Shown in pieces: positions 43,334-64,000 of a stretch of 64,000 nt of DNA. The first letter of the stretch is position 1, and every line of letters begins with the position of its first letter. The position numbers and the translations under genes are program-made. The DNA lies in the NCBI RefSeq assembly GCF_000966285.1, contig NZ_KQ031391.1, forward strand, positions 2,318,640 through 2,382,639. The letters run 5' to 3'. This DNA comes from Pseudofrankia sp. DC12. GTDB lineage: Bacteria; Actinomycetota; Actinomycetes; Frankiales; Frankiaceae. The notes below the pieces were generated by a model. That model searched no databases. It saw only the letters and a list, made by a program, of their open reading frames with translations, and had not been told where the DNA came from.

Positions 43334-43404
43334 CGTGGAGCATCATCTCTGCCTGGGTATGCGACCTGGCGTAGGAACAGCGGCAAAGATCAACGAAGAA
43401 CGTG

Positions 43405-45225: not shown

Positions 45226-45404
45226 GCCAGCCTAGTGATCGGGGCCGGCGTCAGCCGAGCCCGACGGCCGCTGGAGATCGCTGGTAGGGCTCCGCCTGTC
45301 TGGGATGGATCCCGGCTTCGCCCCACGGGGGTGCCGGGTCTTACGCCGCGGCGTCCCGACACGCTCGCGGACCTTCGGCGGCCGCCCGAGGAACCTGCCT
45401 GGCA

Positions 45405-46754: not shown

Positions 46755-46903
46755 GCCTGCCGGATTCCCGAACGGCGCCAAGGAACACGGCAGGCCGAAC
46801 GTGGTTGGCCGAGCCGCGAGAGCAGCAGCAGGCCTCGGTCCCAGCCGGTCTGGCGCGGGTCCGGCCGAGGCCAGGACATGGGTGCGGCCATCAGGGACGC
46901 CCG

Positions 46904-48007: not shown

Positions 48008-48463
48008 AGGACCTCCACAGGAAACCGGATTCGGCCGAGCGTTGGTCAACTCATCCGCAGCCTGAATGCTAGACGCCGTTGTACAGATGAGTCCGGTCGG
48101 GCTCATCGGCATGATTCATGGCGGCGCGGGCCTCCGGCGCATGACGGCCGCTCGGGTATCTCCAGCCTTCCGCCATGAGCAGCCCCTGGCGGCGCCGTAC
48201 CGGCGACCTGCGACTTCTCGACCATCTCGACAGTTACGTGAGGGCATGTCTCACCCACTATCTGTCGTCATACGATCACACATCGGTCGAGCAATCGAAC
48301 GCCGCGAGCGTCCCCAGACAGTTACGTGAGAGGTGGGAAAACGGGGGCGGACGCCCCGCCTTATGGGCCAAAGAATCAGCAGATAATGTCTCGCCGGGAG
48401 CAGTGGGTACCCCGCCTGGCGCATCGCTGGGCCCGGTGACAGGCGGACGCCGGAAAGGATCTC
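48008..48463. promoter_or_regulatory. Divergent intergenic region with 14-bp direct repeats upstream of csl operon
   Basis: 456 bases with no convincing gene. GACAGTTACGTGAG occurs exactly at 48229-48242 and 48317-48330, 88 bases apart. Both precede the small membrane protein gene and cslA. A shorter match (TTACGTGAGGG) occurs near 24473, over the start of GH26-like paralogue B. The sites are candidates for a shared regulator; no promoter elements can be assigned. Confidence 0.45.
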
Positions 48464-49063
48464 GTGTCTATCGACAGGTCGGACGTTCCAGAGGCTGGGG
48501 ACAAGCCAGAGCCCCCAGCGGCTCTTGCCACGCCGCCACGGGGTGTCGGGCAGTGGCGACAGGGCGACCTGTCGAGGTACATCAGCCCCGCGGTCTGGAT
48601 CTGCGTGCTCGCGGCCGCGGTCGCGGTTCTCGGCTCCTTCCGGCACTGGTCGCGAGCAGCCCTCGCCGATCGTGGATCGGATCTTCTGGTCGTGACCGCG
48701 TCCGGATGGGACCTGGCCCCCAGCGGCCAGCTCGTGTTCGCGCTCGCGTTGCTGGTCATGCTCGTCTGCCTGCTGGCGCCGCACACCGGCCGGCTGCGGT
48801 GGGCCTGGCTCGTGCCGCCAGTGGCGGGCGCCGCGATCATCGTGCTCGCGGCGACCCGGATCGGTGCCGGCGAGCCGGCCGCCCACAAGCTGACCCGGCT
48901 GCGGATCGGGACGTTCCAGACCGACCATCCCGTGGTGGCCACGAGTACCGGTCACGGGCTGTGGCTCACCATCGCCGCCGGGTTACTCGTCGCGGCTGCT
49001 GGAACGGTCGTCGCGGTACTCCAGCGGAGCGCGCCGCCGGCCGTGACGGCGAAGCAACGGTGA
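48464..49063 (+). CDS. Four-helix membrane protein of unknown function
   Basis: 199 aa, no family recognised. A 40-residue Pro/Asp-rich N-terminus is followed by membrane helices at about 41-59, 88-105, 112-131 and 165-186. The GTG at 48464 follows GGAAAGGATCTC, a usable ribosome site. It lies 145 bases upstream of cslA on the same strand. It may be an accessory of the glycan synthase, in the position where other synthases have small membrane subunits. This is inference from position only. Confidence 0.6.
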   Translation: MSIDRSDVPEAGDKPEPPAALATPPRGVGQWRQGDLSRYISPAVWICVLAAAVAVLGSFRHWSRAALADRGSDLLVVTASGWDLAPSGQLVFALALLVMLVCLLAPHTGRLRWAWLVPPVAGAAIIVLAATRIGAGEPAAHKLTRLRIGTFQTDHPVVATSTGHGLWLTIAAGLLVAAAGTVVAVLQRSAPPAVTAKQR

Positions 49064-49208
49064 GTGCATCCGACTCGGGAGCCAGGCTTCAAGCGACTGA
49101 CGACACGACGGTTCACGGCGTGTCGGTGACGCCGGTGAACGTCGGCCCGCGGGCGACCGCGAAGACGTCGCGTGGCTATCGAAAATCTTCAGAAGACTTG
49201 GGACTGCG

Positions 49209-51434
49209 GTGACATACGACTACGCCACCTTCTCGACGCTCGCCGGGACGCCGACCCTGGCTCGCGGCGGGTCTGACTACCGGGTCGCCTACCGGCGCGT
49301 GATGGTGGGCCGCGAGCTGCGTCAGGTCCTGCCACTGCTCGTCGTGACCCTGGGCCTGTCGTCATTGTTCTTCGTCTGGCTGATCCAGCCTCAGCACTAC
49401 CCTGACGGTCGCTATCTCCCGACCGGCGTCCGCGTCGGCAACGCCATCATGTTCTGGTTGATCGTGGTGACCGAGGGTATTCGCCTGCTGAATTCGATCA
49501 CCCTGTGCTGGTCATCCGTCATCATGCGTAACCCGATACCGGTCCTGCCGATGCCCGGCCTGCGGGTCGCCTTCACGACCACGATTGTGCCGTCGAAGGA
49601 GCCGCTGGACGTCGTCCGCGACACGCTGATCGCCGCCCGCAACATCCAGTATGAGCGACCGATCGACGTATGGCTGCTGGACGAGGGTGACGACCCAGCC
49701 GTGCGGGCCATGTGCGAGGAGATCGGGGTACGGCATTTCAGCCGCAAGGGCGTTGCCGAATGGAACACCTCGGCGGGCCCGTTCCGGGCCAAGACCAAAC
49801 ACGGCAACCACAACTCATGGCTCGCCGCACACGGTGACGACTACGACGTGGTGCTCTCCGTCGACCCCGACCATATACCGCTACCAAACTTCGCGGACCG
49901 GATGCTCGGCTACTTCCGCGACCGGAACGTCGCCTTTGTGGTCGGCCCGCAGGTCTACGGGAACTTCCGGCACTATCTGACCCGGGGCGCGGAAGCGCAG
50001 AACTACATGTTCCACTCCGTGATACAGCGGGCGGCGAACCGGTTCGCCTCAGGCATGTTCGTCGGCACCAACCACGCCTACCGCGTCGCCACCTGGCGCC
50101 AGATCGGCGGCTTCCAGGACTCGATCACGGAAGATCTCGCGACCTCGCTCGCCGTACACAGCGCACGCAACCCGGACACCAACCACCGCTGGACCTCCGT
50201 GTACACGCCGGACGTCGTCGCGGTCGGCGAGGGCCCGGCGAGCTGGACCGATTTCTTCAACCAGCAGCTGCGTTGGGCCAGGGGTTCCAACGAGGTCATG
50301 GTCACAGACGCGCCGCGCCGGCTCAAGGCGCTCGACTGGGGGCCGCGGCTGCATTACCTGACGCTGATGCTGCACTATCCGACGATCGCCATCACCTGGA
50401 TACTCGGCATGGCGCTGACAATCTTCTACATGGCGCTTGGGTCGACCGGCGTCGTGGTCCACGTGTCGGCCTGGCTGGCGCTCTACATCGACGTGTTCCT
50501 GGCCCGCCTCCTGCTCTATTTCTGGCTGCGGCGCTTCAACATCAGCCCGCATGAGGAAAAGGGCAGCGCCGGGATGTCCGGCATCTTCGTCTCGGTGCTC
50601 TGCACGCCGTTCTACTCGAGCGCGCTGATCGGCGCGCTGCTGCGCCGCAAGCTCGGTTTCGTGGTGACCCCCAAGGGCCGCGCCGCAAGCCCGGACCATC
50701 TGCTCACCTTCCGAAAGCATCTGTTCTGGGCGGCGATCTCGGCCGGGTCGATCATCGCGGCCGCGAGCCTCGGGCATATTTACCCGGCGAACCTCGTCTG
50801 GGCGTCGCTGTCGCTGCTCACCTGCGTCATTCCCATCGCGCTGTGGCTGGTCGAGCCGGTTCTCGCCCCGCGCCGGGCCAAATCGCCGAACCCGCTCCCC
50901 TCCGCGCACATACCCAGACAACGGGTCGATCCCACACGGCCCACGGGGGCGCCGGCCGCGCCCGGCTTCGGTACCGGAACGACCGACGCGACCGGTCCGC
51001 TGATCGGGCCTCTTCCACAACCGCCGGCCTTGTTGCCGCGCACCGCTGGTCTGGGCGAGACCATCGAGGCCCCCGACGACACGGGGATCGCGCACGTCCC
51101 GGCAATAGCCGCGGCGGCCGACCGGCGCGCGGCCACCGGGCCTCAGCCCGTCATCGCCCGTGGGAGTGACCTGGTGGACGCGGGCGTGCCAGCCGGCGTC
51201 CGTCCCATCGGCGTCACGGCCCAGGACGAGCGCAGCCCGACAGGCGACACCGCCGTGACAGCGCGTCCGGGCGAAGCCCGGCCCGAGGACGCACTGCCCG
51301 CCCCCGAAGAGCCGGCCCTCCCAAGCCCCTCCACGACCGGGGGCCTGCCCATCTACACCGAGGACGTGACACTCGTCCTGCATCCGCGCCGCCGCAGGGT
51401 GTCCCTCGATGGCCAGTTGGAGGAGATCACCTGA
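49209..51434 (+). CDS. cslA: Cellulose synthase-like glycosyltransferase (CslA type)
   Basis: 741 aa processive GT2 synthase. Membrane helices near 41-58 and 78-98 precede a cytoplasmic GT-A domain with all processive-synthase motifs: D158 (LLDEGD), D219/D221 (SVDPDH), TED (307-309) and QQLRW (352-356). Four to six helices follow (to about 560), then a disordered tail of about 180 residues. Streptomyces CslA makes a beta-glucan-type polymer at hyphal tips and is paired with GlxA. Its stop TGA overlaps the glxA ATG (ATGA), so the pair is translationally coupled. No PilZ domain is seen. Confidence 0.9.
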   Translation: MTYDYATFSTLAGTPTLARGGSDYRVAYRRVMVGRELRQVLPLLVVTLGLSSLFFVWLIQPQHYPDGRYLPTGVRVGNAIMFWLIVVTEGIRLLNSITLCWSSVIMRNPIPVLPMPGLRVAFTTTIVPSKEPLDVVRDTLIAARNIQYERPIDVWLLDEGDDPAVRAMCEEIGVRHFSRKGVAEWNTSAGPFRAKTKHGNHNSWLAAHGDDYDVVLSVDPDHIPLPNFADRMLGYFRDRNVAFVVGPQVYGNFRHYLTRGAEAQNYMFHSVIQRAANRFASGMFVGTNHAYRVATWRQIGGFQDSITEDLATSLAVHSARNPDTNHRWTSVYTPDVVAVGEGPASWTDFFNQQLRWARGSNEVMVTDAPRRLKALDWGPRLHYLTLMLHYPTIAITWILGMALTIFYMALGSTGVVVHVSAWLALYIDVFLARLLLYFWLRRFNISPHEEKGSAGMSGIFVSVLCTPFYSSALIGALLRRKLGFVVTPKGRAASPDHLLTFRKHLFWAAISAGSIIAAASLGHIYPANLVWASLSLLTCVIPIALWLVEPVLAPRRAKSPNPLPSAHIPRQRVDPTRPTGAPAAPGFGTGTTDATGPLIGPLPQPPALLPRTAGLGETIEAPDDTGIAHVPAIAAAADRRAATGPQPVIARGSDLVDAGVPAGVRPIGVTAQDERSPTGDTAVTARPGEARPEDALPAPEEPALPSPSTTGGLPIYTEDVTLVLHPRRRRVSLDGQLEEIT

Positions 51435-53029
51435 TGGCGACGACGGAATGGTTGGGTGCGCCGCGCCGCCGACGCGTATTCCAGATTTGTTGCCTCGCCA
51501 TCATCCTGGTGGCCGGCAACGGGCCGTTCGTCCGCGGCTGGGCGACGGACGAGTACGACAGCTGGAAAGCACACCAGCCGCAGTACGAGCGCCAGTACGG
51601 CCGGTGGGACGTGGTCGCGGACTCGAAGTCGAGGACCGTCCACGCGGCGCTCCTGCACAGCGGCAAGGTCCTGCTGATGTCCGGATCGGGCAACAGCCAG
51701 GACAACTTCGACGCGAAGAAGTTCACGACGCTGTTGTGGGACCCGACGGCGAACACGTTCCAGAACGTCTACACACCGTGGGACGTCTTCTGCGCCGGAC
51801 ATGCGTTCCTGCCCGACGGGGAGCTGCTGATCGCCGGCGGGACGAAGAAGTACGAGGTCCTGGCGCAGGACTCGCCGGACGGCAAGAAGCACGAGTACCA
51901 GGGGCTGAAGGACTCGTACGTCTTCAATCCGGATACCGAGCGCTACGAGAAGGTCGGCTCCCTGAACTATGCGCGGTGGTATCCGACGCTTGTCACGCTG
52001 GCCAACGGCGCCGTGGTAGCGGTGTCCGGGCTGAACGAGGACGGCCAGATCGATCCGGGTAACACCGAGTCCTTCGACCAGGCCACCCAGACCTGGATCA
52101 CGCATCCGGACCTGGTTAAGGAGTTCCCGACCTACCCATCGCTGCTCCTCACCGCCGACGGCCGGTTGTTCTTCTCCGGCGCGAACGCCGGCTATGGGCC
52201 GGCAAGCCTCGCGGCCAGGCAGTCCGGCCTCTGGAACCTCACGAACAACGCATTCCAGCCGGTGCTGGGCCTGCCCCTGCCCGAACTCAACGAGACCGCT
52301 GGTACCGTGCTGCTGCCGCCGGCCCAGGAACAGAAAGTGATGTTCATCGGCGGCGGTGGCGTAGGGGACACCCAGACGTTGACCGCCAGGACGGCCATCG
52401 TCGACCTGAATTCATCCAACCCGGCCTGGCAGCGGGGCCCGGACCTGTCGGTCGCCAAGCGATACCCTGGCGCGGTGGTTCTGCCCGACGACACAGTGCT
52501 GGTCTCCGGCGGTTCTGCGGCGTACCGCGCCAAGGACTCCCTGACGGCGGAGATCTATCACCCCGACACCAACCAGTTCACGAGGGCCGCCGATCCGACC
52601 GTCGGCCGGGACTATCACTCCGAGTACCTTCTGCTACCTGACGGCCGGGTCGCGGTGTTCGGGTCGAACCCTCTCACCGACAACAACTTCTTCGAGACCC
52701 GCGTCGAGGTCTACTCACCCGCCTATCTCTTCCGCGGGGTCCGTCCCGTGATCCAGTCCGCGCCAGCGGCTGCCACCCGGGGCACGACGATCAACATCAC
52801 TTCTTCCCAGAAGGTGTCGAAGGTGCGCCTGATCCGGGCGGGCGCGTACACCCATGTCACCGACACCGAGCAGCGGTCGGTGGAGTTGCCGATCGTGCAG
52901 CAGGCGAATGGCGTCGTCACGGTGAGCGTGCCGGACAACGCCAACCTGCTCCCGCCGGACTACTACATGCTCTTCGTCGACAATGGCGACAACGTTCCAT
53001 CGGTGGCCAAGTGGGTGCAGGTCCACTGA
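51434..53029 (+). CDS. glxA: Galactose oxidase-like copper radical oxidase (GlxA type)
   Basis: 531 aa. A signal anchor (about 14-36) is followed by a seven-bladed kelch-type propeller and a C-terminal immunoglobulin-like (DUF1929) domain. Residues expected for the mononuclear copper site and Tyr-Cys cofactor are present: C120 (VFCAGHAF), Y155 (HEYQGL, tentative), Y394-H395 (RDYHSEYLLLPDG) and H474 (AYTHVTD). In S. lividans GlxA the crosslink is Cys121-Tyr157, a close positional match. It oxidises glycans or aldehydes made by CslA. It overlaps cslA by 1 base and the following GH6 gene by 19 bases. Confidence 0.88.
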   Translation: MATTEWLGAPRRRRVFQICCLAIILVAGNGPFVRGWATDEYDSWKAHQPQYERQYGRWDVVADSKSRTVHAALLHSGKVLLMSGSGNSQDNFDAKKFTTLLWDPTANTFQNVYTPWDVFCAGHAFLPDGELLIAGGTKKYEVLAQDSPDGKKHEYQGLKDSYVFNPDTERYEKVGSLNYARWYPTLVTLANGAVVAVSGLNEDGQIDPGNTESFDQATQTWITHPDLVKEFPTYPSLLLTADGRLFFSGANAGYGPASLAARQSGLWNLTNNAFQPVLGLPLPELNETAGTVLLPPAQEQKVMFIGGGGVGDTQTLTARTAIVDLNSSNPAWQRGPDLSVAKRYPGAVVLPDDTVLVSGGSAAYRAKDSLTAEIYHPDTNQFTRAADPTVGRDYHSEYLLLPDGRVAVFGSNPLTDNNFFETRVEVYSPAYLFRGVRPVIQSAPAAATRGTTINITSSQKVSKVRLIRAGAYTHVTDTEQRSVELPIVQQANGVVTVSVPDNANLLPPDYYMLFVDNGDNVPSVAKWVQVH

Positions 53030-54069
53030 TCCGCGGCCGCCGTCTCGCCACCGCGCTGCTGGGTCTCGTGCTCAGCGGCTGTGGCGGCGTGAGCGCGACC
53101 GAGGACGCGCAGACGCCGGCCAGCGCGGCTCCCGAGGCCCGGTGCACAACCGGTGCTTCGGGAACCCCGGCTGTCGGGTCGGGCGCCACCGGGACCGTCC
53201 CTCGGGAGCCGTTTCTGGTGGACACCGCCAGCCAGGCGGCACTGCAGGCCGCGGCCGACCCGGCGCACGCGGCCGAGATCGCCCTGTTGGTGCGGACGCC
53301 GACCGCTTTCCCAGTCGGGGACTGGCTGACCGACGTGACCGGGCAGGTCCGCCGTCGGGCCGCGGCGGCCGTGGCAACCGGGTCCACCGCCGTCTTCATG
53401 GTCTATGCCATCCCACACCGGGACATCGGGGCTGGCTTCTCCTCCGGTGGATTCCGGACAGCGGAGGCCTACCGGGCCTTCACCCGCCAGGTCGCGGCCG
53501 GTATTGGGACTGCCCGCGCGGTCGTGGTCCTCGAGCCGGACTCGCTCGCGCAGCTCGACCAGCTGACGGCTGCCCAGCAGGCAGAACGCTACGGGCTGCT
53601 GAATGACGCCGTCGATGTCTACGGCCGGCTACCGGGTACCAGCGTCTACCTGGACGGAGCGAACTGCGGCTGGACACAGGCGTCCGTCATCGCCGAACGC
53701 CTGAAAAATGCCGGCGTGGGCCGTGCCCGTGGTTTCGCGGTCAACGTCGCCAACTACTACCGGACAACGGACGAGGTCACGCGCGGCGACGTGATTTCCG
53801 CGCTCACCGGCGGAGCGCACTTCGTCGTGGACACCTCACGCAACGGCCGAGGCGCCGTCAGCGGCATCGTCAACGCCTGGTGCAACCCTCCCGGCCGGGG
53901 GCTCGGCCCGGCACCGACAACAGACACCGGCGATCCCCGCGCCGACGCCTTTCTTTGGATCAAGACGCCGGGAGCCAGCGACGGGACCTGCGGCCGAGGT
54001 GACCCCGCGGCCGGGCAGTGGTGGCAGGCCCAGGCCGAAGAACTCGTCCGCAACGCCGAGGGGCACTGA
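53011..54069 (+). CDS. GH6 glycoside hydrolase lipoprotein (CslZ-like)
   Basis: 352 aa. A short signal peptide with lipobox LSGC (Cys24) is followed by a GH6 domain with R137-D138 (IPHRDIG), the catalytic acid D177 (VLEPDSLAQLD), VYLDGANCGW and the C-terminal KTPGASDGTC. It would cut beta-1,4-glucan outside the membrane. The third gene of the Streptomyces cslA-glxA locus, cslZ, is also a GH6 enzyme, so this is the likely counterpart. The GTG at 53011 lies inside glxA, a 19-base overlap that indicates one operon. Confidence 0.88.
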   Translation: MGAGPLIRGRRLATALLGLVLSGCGGVSATEDAQTPASAAPEARCTTGASGTPAVGSGATGTVPREPFLVDTASQAALQAAADPAHAAEIALLVRTPTAFPVGDWLTDVTGQVRRRAAAAVATGSTAVFMVYAIPHRDIGAGFSSGGFRTAEAYRAFTRQVAAGIGTARAVVVLEPDSLAQLDQLTAAQQAERYGLLNDAVDVYGRLPGTSVYLDGANCGWTQASVIAERLKNAGVGRARGFAVNVANYYRTTDEVTRGDVISALTGGAHFVVDTSRNGRGAVSGIVNAWCNPPGRGLGPAPTTDTGDPRADAFLWIKTPGASDGTCGRGDPAAGQWWQAQAEELVRNAEGH

Positions 54070-54136
54070 CAGCCGCCGGGCCGGGGCTCCGGGCACAGCC
54101 GAACCGACCAGGCGGCCTTGGGGCGGGCGACGGCCC

Positions 54137-54167
54137 TGCCGGCCCCGCGAGGTCCGCGGGGCCGGCA
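54137..54167 (+). terminator. 13-bp perfect hairpin ending the csl operon
   Basis: TGCCGGCCCCGCG / CGCGGGGCCGGCA with a 5-base loop, 68 bases after the GH6 stop and before the next GH6 gene. It probably marks the end of the cslA-glxA-GH6 transcript. Confidence 0.6.
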
Positions 54168-54250
54168 CCCAGAAGCAGGCGGCGGCCGCTCTGGTAGTAG
54201 ACTGCCGTCACCCGCAATCGCGGTCGTTGAGTGGGCCGTCCGGAGGTCTG

Positions 54251-55516
54251 GTGCGCAAAGCTACGCACCCTCGGGAGGCTCGTGCCGCGAATACCGGCGG
54301 CCATCGCCGGCCCGCGCGCCGCGGCGTTCGTCCGTTCTGGTCGCCTTCGACATCGCGACTGTGTTTCGTGCTCGCGGTGGTGCTCGCGGTATTCGGAGGA
54401 TTCGTCCTCCAGAACCGGGTCCTCGCCGCCGGATCGACGGATACCGCGACGCTCGGTCCCGCGAGGTCGAATGCCACGCAGGTGCCCGGCGGAACGCTGG
54501 GTGCACTCATTGCCGCCACGCCGGCCGCGACCCAGTCGACCCAGTCGAGTCAGCCGACGGCCCAGGCGACACCGACCTCGGTTCCCACGACCGCGCCGGC
54601 GGCGGCCTCCCCGCGACCGGCTCCAGCCGTCCGAACGGATGACCCCTTCGGCGGCGCCACCTTCTACGTCGATCCGGAAAGCGACGCGGCAGCGGCTGTC
54701 CGCGCTCTACAGTCGTCGGCTCCGGCCGATGCCGCCACGTTGTCCCGGCTGGCGAACGGCTCGGCAGCCGCCTGGTTCGGGGATCACGACCCCGCCACGC
54801 TTCAGTCGAGGCTTTCGGCCTGGGTCGGCAAGCTACACGGGGCCGGCGCGCTGCCGGTCGTGGTCGCCTACGGCATACCGAACCGGGACTGCGGCGGCTA
54901 TTCGGCCGGCGGGCTGGCGAGCCCGGACGCGTACCGGGCGTGGATCTCCGCATACGCGGCCGGCATCGGCCGCGGACCGGTCGCGGTGATCCTGGAGCCG
55001 GATGCCCTGGCCCAGATCGACTGCCTGTCGTCGGCCGATGCCCAGACCCGCTACGCGCTGCTCCGCTACGCGGTGGACACGCTCACGTCAGCGGGCGCCA
55101 GTGTGTATATCGACGCTGGCAACGCGAAATGGCACAACGCCTCCGACATGGTGGCCCGGCTTCGGCAGGCGGGTGTCGACCGTGCCCGCGGGTTCGCGCT
55201 GAACGTGTCGAACTTCGATGACACCGCCGATGAGCTGGCCTACGGTGACGCCATCGCCGGGGGGCTCGGTGGCGGCACACACTTCGTGATCGACACGTCC
55301 CGCAACGGTCAGGGGCGAGCACCGGACGGTGCTTGGTGCAACCCGCCCGGACGAGGCCTGGGCGCCCGGCCGACGGCGGCCACCGGCGATGCCCGGGCGG
55401 ACGCGTTCCTGTGGATCAAAATCCCAGGCGAGTCAGACGGCACGTGCAACGGTGGACCGGGCGCGGGACAATGGTGGCTGGACTACGCATTGGGGCTCGC
55501 CCGTCGGTCGGTCTGA
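54251..55516 (+). CDS. GH6 glycoside hydrolase, membrane-anchored
   Basis: 421 aa. A basic N-terminus and one membrane helix (about 37-55) are followed by a Thr/Ser/Pro/Ala spacer (about 60-130) and a GH6 domain. R212-D213 (IPNRDCGGY), D251 (VILEPDALAQID), VYIDAGNAKWH and KIPGESDGTCNGG are all intact. GGAGG lies 4 bases before the GTG at 54251. It is a close paralogue of the genes at 46904-48007 and 53011-54069. A hairpin separates it from the csl operon, so it probably has its own promoter. Confidence 0.88.
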   Translation: MRKATHPREARAANTGGHRRPARRGVRPFWSPSTSRLCFVLAVVLAVFGGFVLQNRVLAAGSTDTATLGPARSNATQVPGGTLGALIAATPAATQSTQSSQPTAQATPTSVPTTAPAAASPRPAPAVRTDDPFGGATFYVDPESDAAAAVRALQSSAPADAATLSRLANGSAAAWFGDHDPATLQSRLSAWVGKLHGAGALPVVVAYGIPNRDCGGYSAGGLASPDAYRAWISAYAAGIGRGPVAVILEPDALAQIDCLSSADAQTRYALLRYAVDTLTSAGASVYIDAGNAKWHNASDMVARLRQAGVDRARGFALNVSNFDDTADELAYGDAIAGGLGGGTHFVIDTSRNGQGRAPDGAWCNPPGRGLGARPTAATGDARADAFLWIKIPGESDGTCNGGPGAGQWWLDYALGLARRSV

Positions 55517-55661
55517 ACGGCGCCACCGCGTGACCCGGCGATCAGCGTGCGCGCCCGAGCAGGGGCGCATCTCGCACGCCGCGCGCGACCCGTCGGATCC
55601 CTGTCGCCGCTCGCGCCGCGCGACAGGCTTCCCGGGACGGCTGCTCGGCAGAGCGCCACCG

Positions 55662-55700
55662 CGACCCGGCGCGCCGCTCGACTCAACGCGCGCCGGGTCG
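55662..55700. terminator. 12-bp hairpin at convergent junction
   Basis: CGACCCGGCGCG / CGCGCCGGGTCG, perfect stem with a 15-base loop. It lies between the convergent GH6 gene (ending 55516) and the nucleotidyltransferase gene (ending 55711). Confidence 0.5.
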
Positions 55701-55710
55701 ACGCCACGAC

Positions 55711-56586
55711 CTACGACGAGGCCGCCGATTCGTGCTCACGAGGAAGGGGCACGGCGGCCAGCAGAGGGGCTGCCGGGCTCTGCTCCCAGATCGCCCACGG
55801 CCGCACGTCGGAGGCCCACAGCTCATCAAGGACCTGCCGGTCCTTCGCCGTGTCCATGGACCGCCAGAAGCCGGTATATGGATACGCGTGCAGAGCGCCG
55901 GCCCGAGCCAGGCGGCGGAACGGCTCGTCGACCAGATCCTCGCCGTCCCCCAACACCGAGAACACGTCAGGACGCATCACGAAGAACCCGCCGTTGACGA
56001 AGACCCGCTCGTCGGCGAGCGGGCCTATCGCCTCGACGGCGCTCGTGCCCGGGCGCATCCGGATCGAATGCAATGACGACGGCGGCGGAACCGCCAGCAT
56101 CGTCGCGACGGCCCCGGTCCGCCGGGCCGCCTCGATCATGTCCGGCAGCGGGACATCGGAAAGGCCGTCGGCATAGTTCGCCAGGAAGAGATCTTCGTCG
56201 GCGACGAGATCCCGGGCCGCCTTCAGCCGTTGCCCGACAAGCGCATCCAGGCCGCTGTCCAGTACCGTCACCCGCCAGCCGGCCGCCATACCGTCCAGAA
56301 GATGGTGCGTGACCACCCCCGGACAGGGCGTCGGCTCGTCCCTCCGGTGCTCGCTCAGCTGCTGCACCCAGGCACGCACGAATTCCGCACGGAAACCGAC
56401 GCAAAGAATGAAGTCGTTGTGCCCATGCGCCGCGTACCAGTTCATGAGGTGCCACAGGACAGGGCGCCCACCAACCGGGTGCAGCGGCTTCGGTGCATCG
56501 GTCGCCCGCTTCGGCGCGAAACGTCGAGTCGAATCCGTCTCCAGGAGCCGCTGCCCCTGGCCACCACAGAACAGAACGACCTTCAC
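55711..56586 (-). CDS. Sugar-1-phosphate nucleotidyltransferase (RfbF-related)
   Basis: 291 aa. It resembles glucose-1-phosphate cytidylyltransferase: VVLFCGGQGQRL (3-14), KPLHPVGGRPVLWHLM, ANYADGLSD and GFWRSMDTAKDR. The usual GxGTR loop reads GQGQR, and about 12 extra residues lie before the KPLHP motif. Nucleotide or sugar specificity may therefore differ from the rfbF product at 16188-17027. The GTG at 56586 begins the conserved sequence. It is divergent from the PIG-L gene across a 949-base gap. Confidence 0.82.
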   Translation of the reverse strand: MKVVLFCGGQGQRLLETDSTRRFAPKRATDAPKPLHPVGGRPVLWHLMNWYAAHGHNDFILCVGFRAEFVRAWVQQLSEHRRDEPTPCPGVVTHHLLDGMAAGWRVTVLDSGLDALVGQRLKAARDLVADEDLFLANYADGLSDVPLPDMIEAARRTGAVATMLAVPPPSSLHSIRMRPGTSAVEAIGPLADERVFVNGGFFVMRPDVFSVLGDGEDLVDEPFRRLARAGALHAYPYTGFWRSMDTAKDRQVLDELWASDVRPWAIWEQSPAAPLLAAVPLPREHESAASS

Positions 56587-57535
56587 TCGTTGCTCTCTTT
56601 TCCCCGCCGCTCTACGCGGCAGACAGAACACTCCTCGGTACGCAAGAAAGCGCACGCTCCGCCGAGACCTTTCTGGCAGATCCGGCGGGTATCTGAATCT
56701 CCCCTCCCACCCAGGCCTGGCCACGCCAGACCAGGCGGTGGGCCCCGCCTTTCAGGACACCCGCCCCGAGGCTGCCTCCACCCCTCCCCAGAGAATATGT
56801 ACCCTGCCCGCACCACAGAATCAACTCTCCCCGAGCGGAAGATACGGCCGCCCTCAAATGCAACCTCCCCTGTTCATGGGTCCCGGGTTCCGGGCCCGCG
56901 AGGCCACCGTGTCGGTGATCCGCGCCGAGGGGGTCCTGGCAGCGGCTCCGAAGTCCTGTGACACTAACCACTCGCCACCTCGGACCACTCGGCGAGCCAC
57001 CGTTCCGGATCATCACACCAAGGCCGCCTCGACGTCTTCCCAAGGGGTTTCGCCCGCCGAGACCGCGCGGACAACTCTCCCCAAGCGTAAGGCCAAGCCT
57101 TTCGCAAACAGAAGGCCTACCCTTCCTGGAGGTAAGGTTTTGGTGCCCTGTGGCAGTTCCGTACCGATGATTCACACGGGCCCGAGAAGGAGATCGACCA
57201 GTTCGGAGAGCGACCACACTGCGACTGTTCGCCAGAGGCTGCGCCGCACAGCCGCAAGAGTGCGGTCGCGGACCGGCCTCCTGGGGGTCGCTTATCGGGC
57301 CGGTGCGGCTGTGCGGTTACCGTCAAGGAGACGAGTACCGTGTGGACTTGACCGAACGGCGCGGAAGGCAACCGGAACACGGTCCGAAGTGATCCGGGCC
57401 GTTCAATTCGACCGGCAGGAGCGTGAAGTGTGGACCGTGGTCCTTTGAGACTTCCTCGGCCGGCGTGCCGGTGAACCGGTCGAGAGTCTCGACGCTGTTG
57501 GCGCCCAAGCGGTCGCGTAGGCACGGATAGTCACC
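56587..57535. other. Long non-coding region with imperfect direct repeat
   Basis: 949 bases between divergent nucleotidyltransferase and PIG-L genes. Long open frames exist but lack conserved motifs. Two segments, about 56755-56846 and 57012-57098, share colinear similarity (CAACTCTCCCC then AGCG at their ends; GAGGCTGCCTCCAC versus AAGGCCGCCTCGAC earlier). The region could hold divergent promoters, a small RNA or a decayed gene. Confidence 0.45.
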
Positions 57536-58204
57536 GTGATCGAGCTTCTACCCGCACTGCCTGTCGAGGGCCAGCACTACCGTGTAGTGGCTCTCGGCGC
57601 TCATTCCGACGATCTCGAGATCGGTGCCGGCGGGACCATCATCAGCATGCTGGCCGCGCACCCGGACACGGCCGTGCACTGGGTCGTTCTGTCTGCCGTT
57701 GGCGGCCGGCGAGACGAGGCGGCCGCCAGCGCGCGCGCGTTGCTGGGCGGTTCGCTCGCCGCGCTGCACCTGCACTCGTTCCGGGACGGGTTCGTCCCGG
57801 CCGACTGGGCCGCGGCGAAGGAGGTACTGCTCGGTGTCGCGCGCGAGGTCCGGCCGGACATCGTCCTGGCGCCGTCCGTCGGGGACTACCACCAGGACCA
57901 CCGGGCCCTGGCGGAGCTGGCCTGGCAGGCTTTCCGAGGCGCGCTGATACTCGAGTACGAGATCCCGAAGTGGGACGGGGACCTGAGCCGCCCGTCGCTG
58001 TACGTCCCGCTCGCCGAGGACGTCGTCGACGCGAAGATCGAGCATCTGCATCGGCACTTCCGCAGCCAGCTCGGCAAGCCCTGGTTTGACGAGGAGCTGT
58101 TCCGGTCGATCCTGCGGCTACGGGGTGTGGAATCCGGCAACCGGTACGCAGAGGCATTCGGTGCCCGGAAGCTGGCTCTCCGCTGGCCAGGACACGCCAG
58201 GTGA
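57536..58204 (+). CDS. PIG-L/LmbE family deacetylase
   Basis: 222 aa. The zinc motif reads AHSDDLEIG (H23, D25, D26), with Ser for the usual Pro, and the third ligand is in YHQDHRAL (H122). These enzymes remove N-acetyl groups from sugars or sugar-lipids. The length is near the minimal domain. The start codon is GTG. Paired with the divergent nucleotidyltransferase it may belong to a small sugar-modification set; in nucleotide-sugar clusters such a pair is common. Substrate unknown. Confidence 0.88.
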   Translation: MIELLPALPVEGQHYRVVALGAHSDDLEIGAGGTIISMLAAHPDTAVHWVVLSAVGGRRDEAAASARALLGGSLAALHLHSFRDGFVPADWAAAKEVLLGVAREVRPDIVLAPSVGDYHQDHRALAELAWQAFRGALILEYEIPKWDGDLSRPSLYVPLAEDVVDAKIEHLHRHFRSQLGKPWFDEELFRSILRLRGVESGNRYAEAFGARKLALRWPGHAR

Positions 58205-58283
58205 CAGGATACTCACCGTCAGGCTGGCCACTGCGTGGGCGATCACGCCGTAGGCGGTGCCCATCACGTTCGACGGCGCTGCC

Positions 58284-58318
58284 GCGCGGGTCATGCTCCA
58301 GACCGGCATGACCCGCGC
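58284..58318. terminator. 13-bp perfect hairpin at convergent junction
   Basis: GCGCGGGTCATGC / GCATGACCCGCGC with a 9-base loop. It lies between the convergent PIG-L gene (ending 58204) and class II aldolase gene (ending 58343) and could serve both. Confidence 0.65.
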
Positions 58319-58342
58319 ACCGCCGCGACTGACAGCACGCTC

Positions 58343-59107
58343 CTAGTCGAGCAGGTCGGGCTCGCGGCGCACGATCCGGTCGTACAGAGGCTGGAAGTTG
58401 AGCCAACCGGTGAGCGAGTTGCCGGTGAGGCCATGGGCCACCTGAGCGTGCTCGGGCGGAATCTGCTTCACCTTGCCGACGGCTTTCGCCACCAGCTGCG
58501 CCTGCGCGGACCGCTCCATGGCGATGAACCACCAGACCGCGGCGTCGACGGACTCGCCGACGGTCAGCAGGCCATGGTTCGCGAGGATGACGGCCTTGGA
58601 CCCACCAAGCGCGGCGGCGATCCGCTTGCCCTCATCAACATCGAACACGGGCCCGTTGTAGTCGTCGAACACGCTGTGGTCCTCGTAGAAGGCACAGGCA
58701 TCCTGCGTGATCGGCTCGATCAGGTCGCCAAGCGTCGACAAGGCCCGGCCGTAGATGGAGTGGCTGTGCGCGGCAGCGATCACGTCTGGGCGGGCCTGGT
58801 GGATCTGGGAGTGGATCGCGAATGCCGACGGGTTCGCGGGGTAACGGCCCTCGACGGTCTCCCCGCTCTCGTTGACGAGGATCAGGTCGCTCACCCGGGC
58901 GTGCGAGAACGCGACCCCGAACGGGTTCACCCAGAAGTGATCGGTCAGCTCGGGATCGCGGGCAGTGATATGTCCCGCGATCCCTTCCTCGAAGCCGAAC
59001 CAGCCGAAGATGCGCAGTGCCGCGGCAAGCCGCTGCTTGCGGTGCTGGCGCTCCTGCTCGGCGGTCTCGAAGGTTGGCGGAAGCCGGAAGATCAGATTGT
59101 CAGCCAT
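58343..59107 (-). CDS. Class II aldolase/adducin family protein
   Basis: 254 aa. A zinc-dependent aldolase/epimerase fold with ligands H114 and H116 (AAHSHSIYG) and H178 (LANHGLL). A substrate loop (HITARDPELTDHFWVNPFG) follows the N-terminal helix. Substrates range from fuculose phosphate to other hydroxy-acids, and none can be assigned. The ATG at 59107 is used; an ATG at 59125 has AGGAG only 2 bases away and is less likely. It is divergent from the sco gene. Confidence 0.87.
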   Translation of the reverse strand: MADNLIFRLPPTFETAEQERQHRKQRLAAALRIFGWFGFEEGIAGHITARDPELTDHFWVNPFGVAFSHARVSDLILVNESGETVEGRYPANPSAFAIHSQIHQARPDVIAAAHSHSIYGRALSTLGDLIEPITQDACAFYEDHSVFDDYNGPVFDVDEGKRIAAALGGSKAVILANHGLLTVGESVDAAVWWFIAMERSAQAQLVAKAVGKVKQIPPEHAQVAHGLTGNSLTGWLNFQPLYDRIVRREPDLLD

Positions 59108-59264
59108 GTCACTAGCGCACCACATCGCTCCTGGCGTCCGAGAGCTGGGCTCCTCGCGGAGCTCGCGCGCACCGCGGCCGGCTACCTCGAGGCGGGCCCG
59201 CGACAGCCGGATCGTGCATGCCGCGACCGTCGTTCCCGATGCCCCATGTGAAGGGATCCCGTTC

Positions 59265-59963
59265 ATGAACGCTTCGGCAGACCGCCCCGGCAGGCGGCGC
59301 CGACGGACGCATCCGGTGGTGACGCTCACGGTCCTGGGCGCCGCCGTCCTCGTCCTGACCGCGGCCCTCGCCGGCTGCGGCGGCTCGTCGGCTTCGTCAA
59401 CGGGGGTGGTCAATCTCGACGACGCCCCCAAGGCCGCCGGCCTGCGGGGCCCCGAGCTGGCTACTCCGCTTCCCATGCCGGACATCCGGCTGACGGACAC
59501 GGCCGGAAGGCCCTACGACGTGAAAGCGGCGACCGGCGGCAAGCTGACCTTCGTCTACTTCGGCTATACCCACTGCCCGGACGTCTGCCCGACCACGATG
59601 GCCGACATCGCCCGCGCGCTCGACCTCGTCCCGGCGGCCGACCGCGGCCGGGTCGCGGTCGTGTTCATCACCACCGACCCCGACCGGGACACCGGGCCGG
59701 TGATCCGGTCATGGCTGGACCAGTTCAACCCGTCCTTCGTCGGCCTGCGTGGGCCATTGGCGCAGGTGGCCGACTACGCCGGACAGCTCGGCGTCCCACT
59801 GGCCGCGCCGCAGCGCCAGGCCGACGGGACGGTCACGGTCGACCACGGCGCCCAGGTCACCGCCTTCAGCCCGGACGGCACCGCACGCACCGTCTACCTG
59901 GCGAACACCCAGGTCGAGGACTACGCGCACGACATCCCGCTGCTACTGAAGGAGACACAGTGA
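59265..59963 (+). CDS. Sco1/SenC family copper chaperone lipoprotein
   Basis: 232 aa. Lipobox LAGC (Cys38) anchors it outside the membrane. The thioredoxin-like domain keeps the copper site: C104 and C108 (THCPDVCPT) and H194 (VDHGAQV). Sco proteins insert copper into the CuA site of cytochrome oxidase; a Streptomyces Sco also passes copper to GlxA. AAGGGA lies about 8 bases before the ATG. The stop overlaps the GTG of the peroxidase gene by 4 bases (GTGA), so the genes are coupled. Confidence 0.92.
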   Translation: MNASADRPGRRRRRTHPVVTLTVLGAAVLVLTAALAGCGGSSASSTGVVNLDDAPKAAGLRGPELATPLPMPDIRLTDTAGRPYDVKAATGGKLTFVYFGYTHCPDVCPTTMADIARALDLVPAADRGRVAVVFITTDPDRDTGPVIRSWLDQFNPSFVGLRGPLAQVADYAGQLGVPLAAPQRQADGTVTVDHGAQVTAFSPDGTARTVYLANTQVEDYAHDIPLLLKETQ

Positions 59964-61363
59964 CCGCCGCGCGGCTGCCTGCCCCGCCGCCGTCGCAGGC
60001 CGGGCATGACAAGACCGCGCCCGCGACCGGTGCGGAGCCTGCACCGCCACCCCCGCCGTCATCCGCGGTCGGGGAGGCGCCGGCTCGGGACGCCTCGGCA
60101 CCCGCCGAGCAACCGCCGCCCCGACGGCTCGGCCGGCGGGCGTTCCTCGGCGGAGCGGGGCTGGTCGGCGCTGGCGGGATCGCCGGCGCGGTCGCCGGCG
60201 GACTGGCTCAGCGCGGCACCGGGCCAGCGGCCACCCCGGTCGGGGTGGCTCGCGAGCGCGCCCAGGCCGTCGCCGCTGTACGCCCAGGCCTGGTACACCA
60301 GCCGGGGATCGTCGAACCGCCGCCCGCACACCTGGTGTTCACCGCCTACGACCTGACCTCCAAAACCAGCGTGGCCGGTTGCCGCGCCGCGCTGACCTCC
60401 GTTCTCACAGCATGGACCGGCGCGGCCCGTACGCTCATGACTGGCGCCCAGCCCGCCGCGGCCGGGGGGCGCGCCCTCGGCCTGGCGCCGTCCGCGCTGA
60501 CGGTCACTATCGGCCTGGGCCCCTCGGCATTGCGCCTCGCCGGCCTGACCAGCCGGATCCCGCCTCAGCTGGCCCCGATTCCGGGCTTCCCGCACGATCA
60601 TCTCGACGCAGCCCGAAGCGGCGGAGACATCGCCGTGCAGATCTGCGCGGAGGATCCGATGGTCGTCGTCTCGGCCGCGCGATACCTCGACACGCTCGCC
60701 AAGGCTGACGCGACTCCGCGCTGGACCCAGCACGGCTTCCGCCGCACTGCCGCCGCCGCGGCCGACCCGACCGGAACCCCGCGAAACCTGATGGGCCAGC
60801 TCGACGGCACCGACAACCCTGTCGTCGGCACCCCCGACTTCGACCAGGCCGTGTGGGCCGACTCCACGGCACCGGCCTGGATGGCCGGCGGCAGCTACCT
60901 CGTCGCCCGCCGGATCCGGATGGATCTCGACCGATGGGACCTGATCTCCACCAGTGGCCAGGAGCAGATCATCGGCCGGAGCAAGGCCACCGGCGCCCCG
61001 CTGACCGGCGGCAGCGAGCACACCGACCCGGACTTCACCGCCACCGGCTCCGACGGCAATCTGGAGATCCCGGCCAACGCCCACATCCGGCTGGCCCACC
61101 CGCAGTCCAACAACGGGGTTCGGATGCTGCGCCGCGGCTACTCGTATCACGACGGCCTCGACGCCGCCGGCCAGCTCGACGCCGGCCTCTTCTTCCTGGC
61201 CTACCAGGCAGACCCATTGGTGGCCTTCACCGCCATCCAAAGCAAGCTCGACCGCCTCGACGCACTGTCCGCCTTCATCCGCCACACCGGCAGCGCGCTG
61301 TTCGCCATTCCAGCAGCCGCGCCGACCGATGGATATGTCGGCCAGCAGCTGCTGGAGGGCTGA
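59960..61363 (+). CDS. DyP-type haem peroxidase, Tat-exported (DtpA/EfeB-like)
   Basis: 467 aa. A twin-arginine signal (RRAFLGG, R59-R60) is followed by a DyP ferredoxin-like fold. The GXXDG motif GQLDG (278-282) and a candidate proximal haem ligand H374 (HIRLAHPQ) are present. DyP peroxidases use hydrogen peroxide; Streptomyces DtpA, also a Tat substrate, is required for GlxA maturation. It could instead be EfeB-type, but no EfeO or EfeU gene is adjacent. GGAG precedes the GTG at 59960. It lies between sco and PCuAC genes. Confidence 0.9.
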   Translation: MTAARLPAPPPSQAGHDKTAPATGAEPAPPPPPSSAVGEAPARDASAPAEQPPPRRLGRRAFLGGAGLVGAGGIAGAVAGGLAQRGTGPAATPVGVARERAQAVAAVRPGLVHQPGIVEPPPAHLVFTAYDLTSKTSVAGCRAALTSVLTAWTGAARTLMTGAQPAAAGGRALGLAPSALTVTIGLGPSALRLAGLTSRIPPQLAPIPGFPHDHLDAARSGGDIAVQICAEDPMVVVSAARYLDTLAKADATPRWTQHGFRRTAAAAADPTGTPRNLMGQLDGTDNPVVGTPDFDQAVWADSTAPAWMAGGSYLVARRIRMDLDRWDLISTSGQEQIIGRSKATGAPLTGGSEHTDPDFTATGSDGNLEIPANAHIRLAHPQSNNGVRMLRRGYSYHDGLDAAGQLDAGLFFLAYQADPLVAFTAIQSKLDRLDALSAFIRHTGSALFAIPAAAPTDGYVGQQLLEG

Positions 61364-61370
61364 TGATCGC

Positions 61371-62045
61371 ATGCTGACGTCAGGGTCCACCACGATGCCG
61401 ATCAATCGCTCCCTGGCTGCCGCGGGCCGGACCTGCCGGCTGGCCAGGCGGGCCGTTCCCATCAGTCTGCTGGTCGCCGCGCTGCTGGTGGCCGGCTGCG
61501 CCGCTGCCGGCTCCCGCCCGACCACGCCAAACGGCGCCGCGGCCGGGCCGCGCGGCACGGCGCCCGGGATACCTCCGGCCACAGATCCAGCCGCCGCGGC
61601 CGACACCGGCAGCGGCGACCTCGGCAGCCTGCGCATCCGCGGCGCCTACATCCCGCAACAGGCGTCGCCAGATGTCGCGGCCGCCTACTTCACCATCGAG
61701 AATGACGGCAAGGCCGACGACGACCTCATTTCGGCGACCACCCCCGCCGCCCGCTCGGTGAGCCTGCACACCACCGTCGACCACGGCGGCGCCGCGACGA
61801 TGGTCCCCCTGACCGGGCTGACCATCCCCGCGCATGGCACGGCCGCACTCACCGTCGGCCACGCCCATCTCATGCTGGTGAACCCGGTCCGAATGCTGAC
61901 AAAGGGGCAACGGGTTACCCTTACGCTCAGCTTCGCCCATGCCGGCCGGCTGCAGCTCGTTGTCCCCGTCGTCGGCTTCACCGGCCCGAATGACACCGGC
62001 GAGGACGTCGGCGGCATGGGAAACATGCCTGGAATGGGTGAATAG
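61371..62045 (+). CDS. PCu(A)C-type periplasmic/extracytoplasmic copper chaperone (ECuC-like)
   Basis: 224 aa. Lipobox VAGC (Cys43) and a Pro/Ala-rich spacer are followed by a cupredoxin-like PCuAC domain. The copper motif H-x10-M-x21-H-x-M is fully intact at H133, M144, H166 and M168. The C-terminus is Met/Gly-rich (GGMGNMPGMGE) and may add copper sites. It starts 8 bases after the peroxidase stop. PCuAC proteins pass Cu(I) to Sco; the pairing with Sco and DyP matches the Streptomyces GlxA-maturation locus. Confidence 0.9.
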   Translation: MLTSGSTTMPINRSLAAAGRTCRLARRAVPISLLVAALLVAGCAAAGSRPTTPNGAAAGPRGTAPGIPPATDPAAAADTGSGDLGSLRIRGAYIPQQASPDVAAAYFTIENDGKADDDLISATTPAARSVSLHTTVDHGGAATMVPLTGLTIPAHGTAALTVGHAHLMLVNPVRMLTKGQRVTLTLSFAHAGRLQLVVPVVGFTGPNDTGEDVGGMGNMPGMGE

Positions 62046-62070
62046 CGCGCCCAGGCTGCCTCTCCCCCAT

Positions 62071-62089
62071 GCGCCCTCGTTCAGGGCGC
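62071..62089. terminator. Hairpin after the copper operon
   Basis: GCGCCCT / AGGGCGC with a 5-base loop, 26 bases after the PCuAC stop and before the convergent desaturase gene. Confidence 0.5.
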
Positions 62090-62167
62090 CGGGACTTCTG
62101 GGGTTCGGGCAACCGGGTGGTCGCGGCTGGCCGCACCGCGCCGGGACGGGGACCACGACGGTGGCGG

Positions 62168-63208
62168 TCAGCCGGCCGAGGCCGCTGTCCGGGGCGCGGC
62201 GAGCTTGGCCAGGCGTTCCTTGGTGGGGCGGCGGACGTCGCGGATGACCCTGGTCAGCTCGAGCGCCTTGATGATGTAGAAGCTCGTGTCGATCTGCCAC
62301 GGGCGCACCCCGTGCCGCGCGGATGTCGGCTCGGCGTGGTGCAGGTTGTGCCAGGACTCGCCCATCGACGGCAGGCACATCCACCACACGTTGCCGGAAC
62401 GGTCGCGCGAGCGGTACGGCCTCCTGCCCACTACGTGACAGATGCTGTTGACCGACCAGGTGGTGTGGTGAAGCAGCGCCACCCGCACCAGGCCGCCCCA
62501 GAAGAAGGCACGGACCGCTGCCTCGAAGGAGCCTTCCCACAGCCCGCCGATGAGGGCCGGCAGCGCGAGGCTCACGAACGCGCAGCCGGCGAACGTCCGG
62601 CTCACCAACACGATGTCCTTGTCGTCCAGCAGGTCCGGCGCGTACTTGCGCTGGTCGGTCTGCTCAACGTCGAACAACCAGCCGATGTGCGCGTGCCACA
62701 GGCCCTTCGTCAGCGCCCGCGCGCCGGGGCCGAACCGCCACGGGGAGTGCGGGTCGCCCTCCTGGTCGCTGTACGCGTGATGGCGGCGGTGGTCGGCGAC
62801 CCACCGGATGACCGGGCCCTCGATCGCCATGTTGCCGAACACCGCGAGCAGGATTCGGACGGGCCGCGACGTCTTGAAGCCGCGGTGCGTGAAGTACCGG
62901 TGGAAGCCCACCGTGACGCCGTGGCCGGTGATGCCATACATGAACACCGCGATCACCAGGTCGTGCCAGGTGATCCAGTGATCCCACAGCAGCGGGACGG
63001 CGGCGATCAGCGCCGCGATCGGAACGAAGATGATGCTGGCCAGCACCATCTGCTCGGTCCGAGCTTTGATCATCCAGCGAGGCGCGCTGGTGTGCTCGCT
63101 GCGGGTCGCGCGCGGGGCCCCCGCCGCGGGAACTGAGCCCACACCCACCCCGCCTCGCCCATCCGGCGGACTGGAATCCGTAGGCTGCACCGTCTCGGTC
63201 GCGGTCAT
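62168..63208 (-). CDS. Acyl-CoA/acyl-lipid desaturase (membrane di-iron)
   Basis: 346 aa delta-9-type fatty acid desaturase. Three histidine boxes are intact: HRYFTH (103-108), HRRHH (140-144) and HNLHH (287-291). Two pairs of membrane helices are placed as usual (about 55-75 and 82-100; about 203-222 and 232-250). The first 40 residues are low-complexity. The ATG at 63208 has CAGGA about 9 bases upstream. It introduces a double bond into membrane acyl chains and needs ferredoxin-type electron donors not seen here. Confidence 0.92.
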   Translation of the reverse strand: MTATETVQPTDSSPPDGRGGVGVGSVPAAGAPRATRSEHTSAPRWMIKARTEQMVLASIIFVPIAALIAAVPLLWDHWITWHDLVIAVFMYGITGHGVTVGFHRYFTHRGFKTSRPVRILLAVFGNMAIEGPVIRWVADHRRHHAYSDQEGDPHSPWRFGPGARALTKGLWHAHIGWLFDVEQTDQRKYAPDLLDDKDIVLVSRTFAGCAFVSLALPALIGGLWEGSFEAAVRAFFWGGLVRVALLHHTTWSVNSICHVVGRRPYRSRDRSGNVWWMCLPSMGESWHNLHHAEPTSARHGVRPWQIDTSFYIIKALELTRVIRDVRRPTKERLAKLAAPRTAASAG

Positions 63209-64000
63209 CGCGGCATCCTGTCTGTCGCGGCAGGTCCACACATTGGCCCTGTTGGGCTCACGGTAACGGCCCCCGGGGTGCGTCTGTGCGCGTGCCGGCA
63301 ACCGCGACGCAAACTCTTTCGGTCTTGTCGTGGGCTCTTACTACCCGTCCCCGGCACAGTTACGGCCCGCCCGGAGATACCTCCCGCTAGTGACGTTCTG
63401 TACCCAGGTGAGCCTGCGTGCCCGCGACCGTCTACCGCGAAGGTCGCGCCCCGGCCAGCGAGTCATGGGAGAGCGCCAAACCCGACAGTCAACCTGCGCC
63501 ACAGACCGGCGGCTGGGCGAGCCAGCCCGGACACCACGGGCCGGCCGTGGGGCGCCAGAGAGTGTCATCTACTGCCGGGTAGCTGCCGGCCTCGCCCGCC
63601 GGCCGCGCGCGGTCCCGGCAGCGGCAGATTCGGTCCGAGCACGGATCATGGATCATGGATCATCGCCCATGATTTGACGCCGCCGCAGCGCGGCGCGAAA
63701 GACGCCGAAGCCGCGCCCCGGGGAAAACCGGCCGAAGAGCCGAGAACGGAGGCGACAAACTTTCGCGGCGCGCGGGACCGACTTTCAGGGTCAAGAAAAC
63801 GAGGCAGCCGCGCCAATCGTGACGCACTTCCGCCAACGGGGAGAACAGGGGGAACGCGGCGATGCCGTCGACCATGGGCCGGCCGGCGGCAACGGCCAGC
63901 TCCGCCGCCACGACTCGAACGTGGACTAAGAGAACCAAAATCTCCTGTGCTGCCGATTACACTACAGCGGACCGTGAAATCAGAAGAAGTCTACCATCGC
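63209..64000. other. Terminal region without a supported gene
   Basis: 792 bases to the window end. Two short open frames (a 92-aa minus-strand frame at 63660-63938 and a 115-aa plus-strand frame at 63330-63677) lack motifs, good starts or a family. A 7-base tandem repeat (GGATCAT, three copies, 63642-63662) is present. The last about 70 bases are AT-richer, as a promoter or gene edge might be. Confidence 0.4.

Follow-up and report, generated by a model that had tools for sequence, protein, structure and literature searches.

Does the cslA-glxA locus of Pseudofrankia sp. DC12, which an earlier note on this DNA had described as gathered in one region with its copper-maturation genes, constitute a single heritable unit, and which of the neighboring copper genes actually belong with GlxA? 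The maturation of GlxA at low copper needs Sco and DtpA, with ECuC being less important, and the Frankia cslA-glxA cluster is known to adjoin a sco homologue (Petrus 2016, PMC4736821), while the CslA-GlxA pair of S. lividans makes cellulose in vitro (PMC11022532). The Frankia locus itself has been called the “cellulase synton” (PMC9760358, PMC10252897, PMC8951365), its genes being listed as typical of the symbiotic clusters 1-3, to the exclusion of cluster 4 (PMC9760358, PMC10252897); CcI3 is without it (PMC9760358), and a genome search did not find it in G010. Frankia sp. DC12 is described as a non-infective cluster 4 strain isolated from Datisca with a genome of 6.88 Mbp (PMC4541282).

Gene content of the locus

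The window (the whole 64,000-nucleotide stretch analyzed, lying in a genome represented by a single contig of 6,884,336 bases) contains cslA (49209-51434, +), a cellulose-synthase-like GT2 gene whose product aligns to cellulose synthase structures and has every one of the D, DxD, TED and QxxRW motifs that the earlier note had read in it (DEGDD at residue 158, DPD at 219, TED at 307 and QQLRW at 352). The overlaps claimed for its downstream neighbors are likewise real: cslA shares one base (TGATG) with glxA (51434-53029, +), which encodes a short form of the copper radical oxidase without Domain 2, and glxA overlaps a cslZ-like GH6 gene (53011-54069, +; PF01341, E 1.4e-56) that, in turn, overlaps a second GH6 gene downstream (53999-55516, +; PF01341, E 7.6e-66), the true start of which may be later. 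A further GH6 gene, encoding a lipoprotein, is divergent from cslA (46904-48112, -; PF01341, E 2.8e-49), so that, of the two extra GH6 genes placed by the earlier note within 49209-62045, one is indeed there and the other lies outside. The genes making up the Frankia cellulase synton, celA (GH6), glx and bcsA (cslA), occur all together in the window. Two open reading frames upstream of cslA (46805-48178, +, antisense to the GH6 gene, and 48175-49212, +) gave no family match, and an Rfam search of 45-63.5 kb returned no riboswitch or other RNA. A ferric-reductase-like flavocytochrome with PF01794, FAD- and NAD-binding domains (45405-47087, -, as the listed ORF, the true start being probably more internal) was not seen at the glxA loci of relatives; that it could reduce extracellular copper is speculation.

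The cslA-glxA-GH6-GH6 operon lies upstream of a sco-dyp-PCuAC operon, the gap between glxA and sco being 6.2 kb, in agreement with the “about 6 kb” given earlier. This gap holds genes for a sugar-1-phosphate nucleotidylyltransferase (55711-56724, -; best match TIGR02623, below cut-off), a homologue of which is also found near glxA in loci of genus g7, a PIG-L family deacetylase (57536-58204, +; PF02585, E 2.1e-15) and a class II aldolase family protein (58343-59107, -), a copy of which, at 79% aa identity, is present elsewhere in the related genome G002. None of the three has an evident tie to copper, which counts against the explanation proposed below.

The operon itself is as tight as had been claimed. 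The sco product (59265-59963, +) is a putative membrane-anchored lipoprotein with a lipobox (AGCGG), the CxxxC motif (CPDVC) and a distal His (DHGAQ); dyp (59960-61363, +; GTG start at 59960), whose first 4 nt are shared with sco, encodes a peroxidase with DyP domains and a Tat motif (RRAFLGG); and the ECuC-like PCuAC copper chaperone gene (about 61371-62045, +) encodes a lipoprotein in which the H-X10-M-X21-H-X-M motif is exact. No extra gene is found among these three, and a desaturase gene on the opposite strand comes next; a complete S. lividans-type copper trafficking operon (sco, ecuC, an SLI_4212-type Cu transporter and dtpA together) is not what the window has. Phylogenetically, the window DyP falls in the DtpA clade and not the EfeB clade, grouping with operon copies from other genomes, and an EfeB identity was rejected based on this tree and on the separate EfeUOB locus of the same genome, whose EfeB was recognized by the FTR1-imelysin-DyP gene order. 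Elsewhere in the genome, two DyP gene fragments (G000:C1:2430983-2431481, -) look like a decayed copy, with the collinear G002 seeming to have an intact DyP gene there (720667-721905). The window genome also has a second Sco, belonging to the housekeeping clade; the published SenC counts (two for DC12 and one for EuI1c; PMC4531530) agree with the Sco counts of the present analysis.

A GlxA without Domain 2

The GlxA protein of the window has 531 residues and, with S. lividans GlxA as its best solved relative (4UNM, E 6e-146), lacks profile positions 148-256 of the NCBI GlxA model, Domain 2 comprising residues 143-260 in S. lividans GlxA numbering (PMC11022532). It is because of this missing domain that the protein, scoring 653.9 bits, stays below the curated equivalog cut-off of 800 bits. 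The copper-site residues matched to 4UNM (C120, W182, Y183, Y394, H395 and H474, i.e., the Cys-Tyr pair, the second-sphere Trp, and the Tyr and two His ligands) are all present and invariant in eight aligned Frankiaceae sequences. An N-terminal TM helix is kept as a predicted membrane anchor (hydrophobic helix 10-29 in the AlphaFold model, mean pLDDT 75, whose best structural matches are GlxA structures, that of S. lividans being the closest), and the gene appears to be translationally coupled behind cslA. Judging by its sequence, the window protein is a GlxA minus one domain with a copper site predicted to be intact.

Other Frankiaceae cslA-glxA copies are of the short form too, except for two extra full-length copies in G022, a Frankia-like MAG in which three GlxA copies were seen (L063, L076 and L077), one short and two full-length with Domain 2. 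Far from this family, Candidatus Saccharibacteria, whose genomes are tiny, have cslA overlapping a short-form glxA at two loci (L095, 8241-13145, CP023991.1; L096, 2382-7466, JALQUD010000041.1), the encoded GlxA being 54-56% identical to that of the window; after cslA-glxA come a small cupredoxin-like protein gene and then a GH6 gene, on the opposite strand. No Sco match was found in the 1-Mb genome of L095, such radical oxidases occur in 5 of the 295 genomes of this class, and our literature search found no paper on the Saccharibacteria cslA-glxA.

One block, absent from a collinear relative

G002, the one relative in which the site was compared, aligns collinearly with the window, at nucleotide identities of 83-94%, over bases 1-45,234 and from 62,195 to the end, and the 16,960 bases in between (45,235-62,194, unstranded), which include both gene groups, are represented in G002 by about 180 bp. 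In the dc-megablast comparison of the window with G002 660-980 kb, window bases 43402-45234 correspond to G002 781398-779572 and window bases 62195-63504 to G002 779392-778084; at that site of G002, the ABC-F and desaturase genes are adjacent, with no island genes. In the tree of CslA plus GlxA, the window clusters with genus g6 (Parafrankia; support 100/98), whereas the rpoB species tree puts the genus of the window outside Frankia, Parafrankia and Protofrankia, and forcing the species-tree placement on CslA plus GlxA was rejected (AU p=0.018, a post hoc test against a species tree built from one gene, rpoB, some deep branches having less than 90% support).

Taken together, the empty site of G002 and the tree conflict make it probable that the two gene groups entered (or left) the genome as a single block, the copper operon apparently having shared its fate with cslA, glxA, all GH6 genes and the ferric reductase. 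This fits the “self-contained” system that the earlier note had suggested. We favor the transfer of a single block, in a direction that we infer. Neither an integrase nor any other mobility gene was seen within it. The third-position GC of the block is slightly low (about 0.80-0.91 vs. 0.91-0.95), and an argument for foreign origin from GC was rejected as weak because cslA and glxA are GC-poor in all relatives.

Which copper genes accompany glxA

In the neighborhood comparison of 35 Frankiaceae genomes, short glxA was found in 20, and none of the seven other members of the window's genus had it (7/8 without). The common order in loci of the Frankia, Parafrankia and Protofrankia type is cslA-glxA-GH6-(GH6)-sco, and a Sco gene lies no more than 7 kb from glxA at 13 of the 20 loci, against 0.12 expected under random placement (contig ends prevent judging this proximity in G016, G018 and G034). 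A tree of 83 Sco proteins resolves three main paralogues: a housekeeping one present in nearly every genome, one lying beside a second radical oxidase, and one forming a GlxA-associated clade (SH-aLRT 95), which comprises every glxA-adjacent Sco, that of the window, and the Sco of the sco-dyp-PCuAC operons in G014, G015, G016, G020 and G022. This last clade is represented in 20/20 genomes with glxA vs. 2/14 without; the assemblies of both exceptions, G017 and G020, are fragmented. Leaving out G030, whose faulty rpoB row kept it out of the final rpoB tree and counts, the figures become 19/19 vs. 2/14 (Fisher p 2.6e-7), and 6/6 informative independent pairs on the rpoB tree agree (p 0.031). A Sco of this clade sits either beside glxA or in the sco-dyp-PCuAC operon, no genome of the sample clearly having both. 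The second radical copper oxidase is a distinct protein (open frames mostly of 640-1180 aa; L071, 7243-9762; L072, 5836-8472; and some 16 further loci in the Frankiaceae), has its own Sco paralogue within about 1 kb, forming its own clade, and is absent from the window genome. G084 and G317 (family f15) have full-length GlxA and PCuAC with no Sco match; Sco is, therefore, not universal among GlxA holders.

The other two copper genes behave differently from Sco. Among the Frankiaceae, the presence of neither PCuAC (Fisher p 1.0) nor a DtpA-type DyP (Fisher p 0.48) is correlated with that of glxA: half of the 20 glxA genomes are without DtpA and 14/20 without PCuAC. Whole genera hold glxA without a DtpA-type DyP, genera g6 and g7 having glxA with a mostly adjacent sco and, as their sole DyPs, proteins outside the DtpA clade that fall with the EfeB of the window genome or further out. 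The sco-dyp-PCuAC group is near glxA in 1/20, the window genome only, and 23 Streptomyces genomes have an adjacent sco-PCuAC pair that is never near glxA, in line with what the earlier note had said of the maturation genes of S. lividans.

The Sco-GlxA link, then, holds across the Frankiaceae, and the DyP and PCuAC parts are not general. The observation made earlier is confirmed and its functional interpretation partly supported, standing for Sco and failing as a family-wide statement for DyP and PCuAC; the note had itself held that rarity of the two groups near each other in relatives would speak against it, and this rarity applies to DyP/PCuAC and not to Sco. Its suggestion that the clustering supports the link independently has to be dropped with respect to Sco, because Petrus 2016 (PMC4736821) had already reported the adjacency in Frankia and given it as a rationale.

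Proposed explanation and its rivals

From what was observed (the genes present and their motifs, the indel of the whole block, the conflict between gene and species trees, and the co-inheritance of Sco), we consider it reasonably likely that the block is a CslA-GlxA-type locus for the assembly of a cellulose-like glucan, that it includes the genes for loading copper, and that a single horizontal transfer brought it in from a Parafrankia-like lineage. With the protein roles modelled on S. lividans, CslA would polymerize a beta-1,4-glucan, the membrane-anchored GlxA would partner CslA and oxidize the chain, and the GH6 enzymes would trim the glucan; Sco, the paralogue inherited with glxA, would deliver copper for the Tyr-Cys cofactor of GlxA and, by the same reasoning, probably serves GlxA in the window strain, PCuAC would feed Sco, and the Tat-exported DyP might be an accessory acting on the copper redox state and removing peroxide.

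Should the two gene groups be mere neighbors, sco-dyp-PCuAC would be a general copper module (e.g., for cytochrome c oxidase) lying 6 kb from cslA-glxA by chance, and other bacteria do use Sco and PCuAC for cytochrome c oxidase as well, which counts against the explanation just given. Comparable groups exist in genomes without detected glxA (G006, G020 and, with dyp and PCuAC only, G007), the operon of G014, G015 and G022 is on a different contig from glxA, outside the flanks read (G016 not being judgeable), and both the single case of proximity and the uncorrelated presence of PCuAC and DtpA point the same way; an accident is nevertheless improbable, given that the Sco of the operon is a member of the GlxA-associated clade, encoded at a position resembling that of the sco that follows GH6 in relatives, that the operon shares one indel with cslA-glxA, and that the second, housekeeping-clade Sco could serve the oxidase. 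We are somewhat less dismissive, while still regarding it as rather unlikely, of a cslA-glxA...sco-dyp-PCuAC locus in the family ancestor, lost by the other Pseudofrankia, stripped of dyp-PCuAC in Parafrankia/Protofrankia and with the operon relocated in part of Frankia: the either-or position of the GlxA-clade Sco, the nucleotidylyltransferase beside the locus shared with g7 and the genus-level divergence of the window GlxA would suit it, whereas the conflict between the CslA plus GlxA and rpoB trees (AU p=0.018) speaks against it, as does the lack of glxA in 7/8 members of the genus, for which this reading needs several losses.

A mainly cellulose-degrading, nodule-related cluster, whose synthase makes a short glucan for root-hair entry and not a hyphal-tip coat, is about as doubtful as chance neighborhood. 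Three GH6 genes and the Frankia homologues, i.e., the synton characteristic of symbiotic clusters (PMC9760358, PMC10252897), argue for it; the tight coupling of cslA and glxA, the cellulose obtained from S. lividans CslA-GlxA in vitro (PMC11022532) and the description of DC12 as non-infective (PMC4541282) argue against. Returning to the one-block transfer of a glucan assembly locus with its copper-loading genes, a bolder version is conceivable and can be put forward only tentatively: a cellulose-type locus with Sco, DyP and PCuAC may move among Frankiaceae as one unit, and a non-infective lineage may in this way have acquired a locus associated with symbiosis, the Domain-2-less GlxA of much of the family being matured by a dedicated Sco without DtpA/ECuC.

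The Frankiaceae make it possible to separate the constant copper partner of GlxA (one Sco paralogue) from the optional ones (DtpA and ECuC), which Streptomyces genetics alone cannot do, and the DC12 block offers a natural one-block system for a heterologous test of the copper loading of radical oxidases. A locus called characteristic of symbiotic Frankia is, moreover, present in a non-infective strain, probably via transfer.

Comparison with known systems

What is already known is that sco lies beside cslA-glxA in Frankia and that the cellulase synton exists, the function of Sco having been published in outline; what is new is the single-block indel, the co-inheritance of the Sco paralogue, the short GlxA, the closeness of a sco-dyp-PCuAC operon to glxA, found in this genome only, and the presence of the locus in a strain described as non-infective, a literature search (not an exhaustive one) having found no description of the DC12 block, the Sco co-inheritance or a Domain-2-less GlxA. 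Compared with cslA-glxA-cslZ of S. lividans/coelicolor, cslA and glxA are ordered and coupled alike in the window, with GH6 coming next, and GlxA has the same copper ligands, Tyr-Cys residues and N-terminal membrane anchor; the window differs in that its GlxA lacks Domain 2, in its extra GH6 genes and in having its copper operon close by, whereas in Streptomyces this operon is 0.5-1.2 Mb away where both are on one contig. The sco-ecuC-SLI_4212-dtpA operon of S. lividans likewise unites Sco, a PCuAC lipoprotein and a Tat-exported DtpA-type DyP, the window operon differing in its order (sco-dyp-PCuAC), in having no SLI_4212 counterpart and in its closeness to cslA-glxA. With the Frankia cellulase synton (celA-glx-bcsA; FRAAL4954-4959 in F. 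alni), finally, the window shares the cslA-glxA-GH6-GH6-sco order and the short GlxA, but it adds dyp and PCuAC, has other flanking genes, and carries its copy in a strain of cluster 4, where the synton has been reported absent (PMC9760358).
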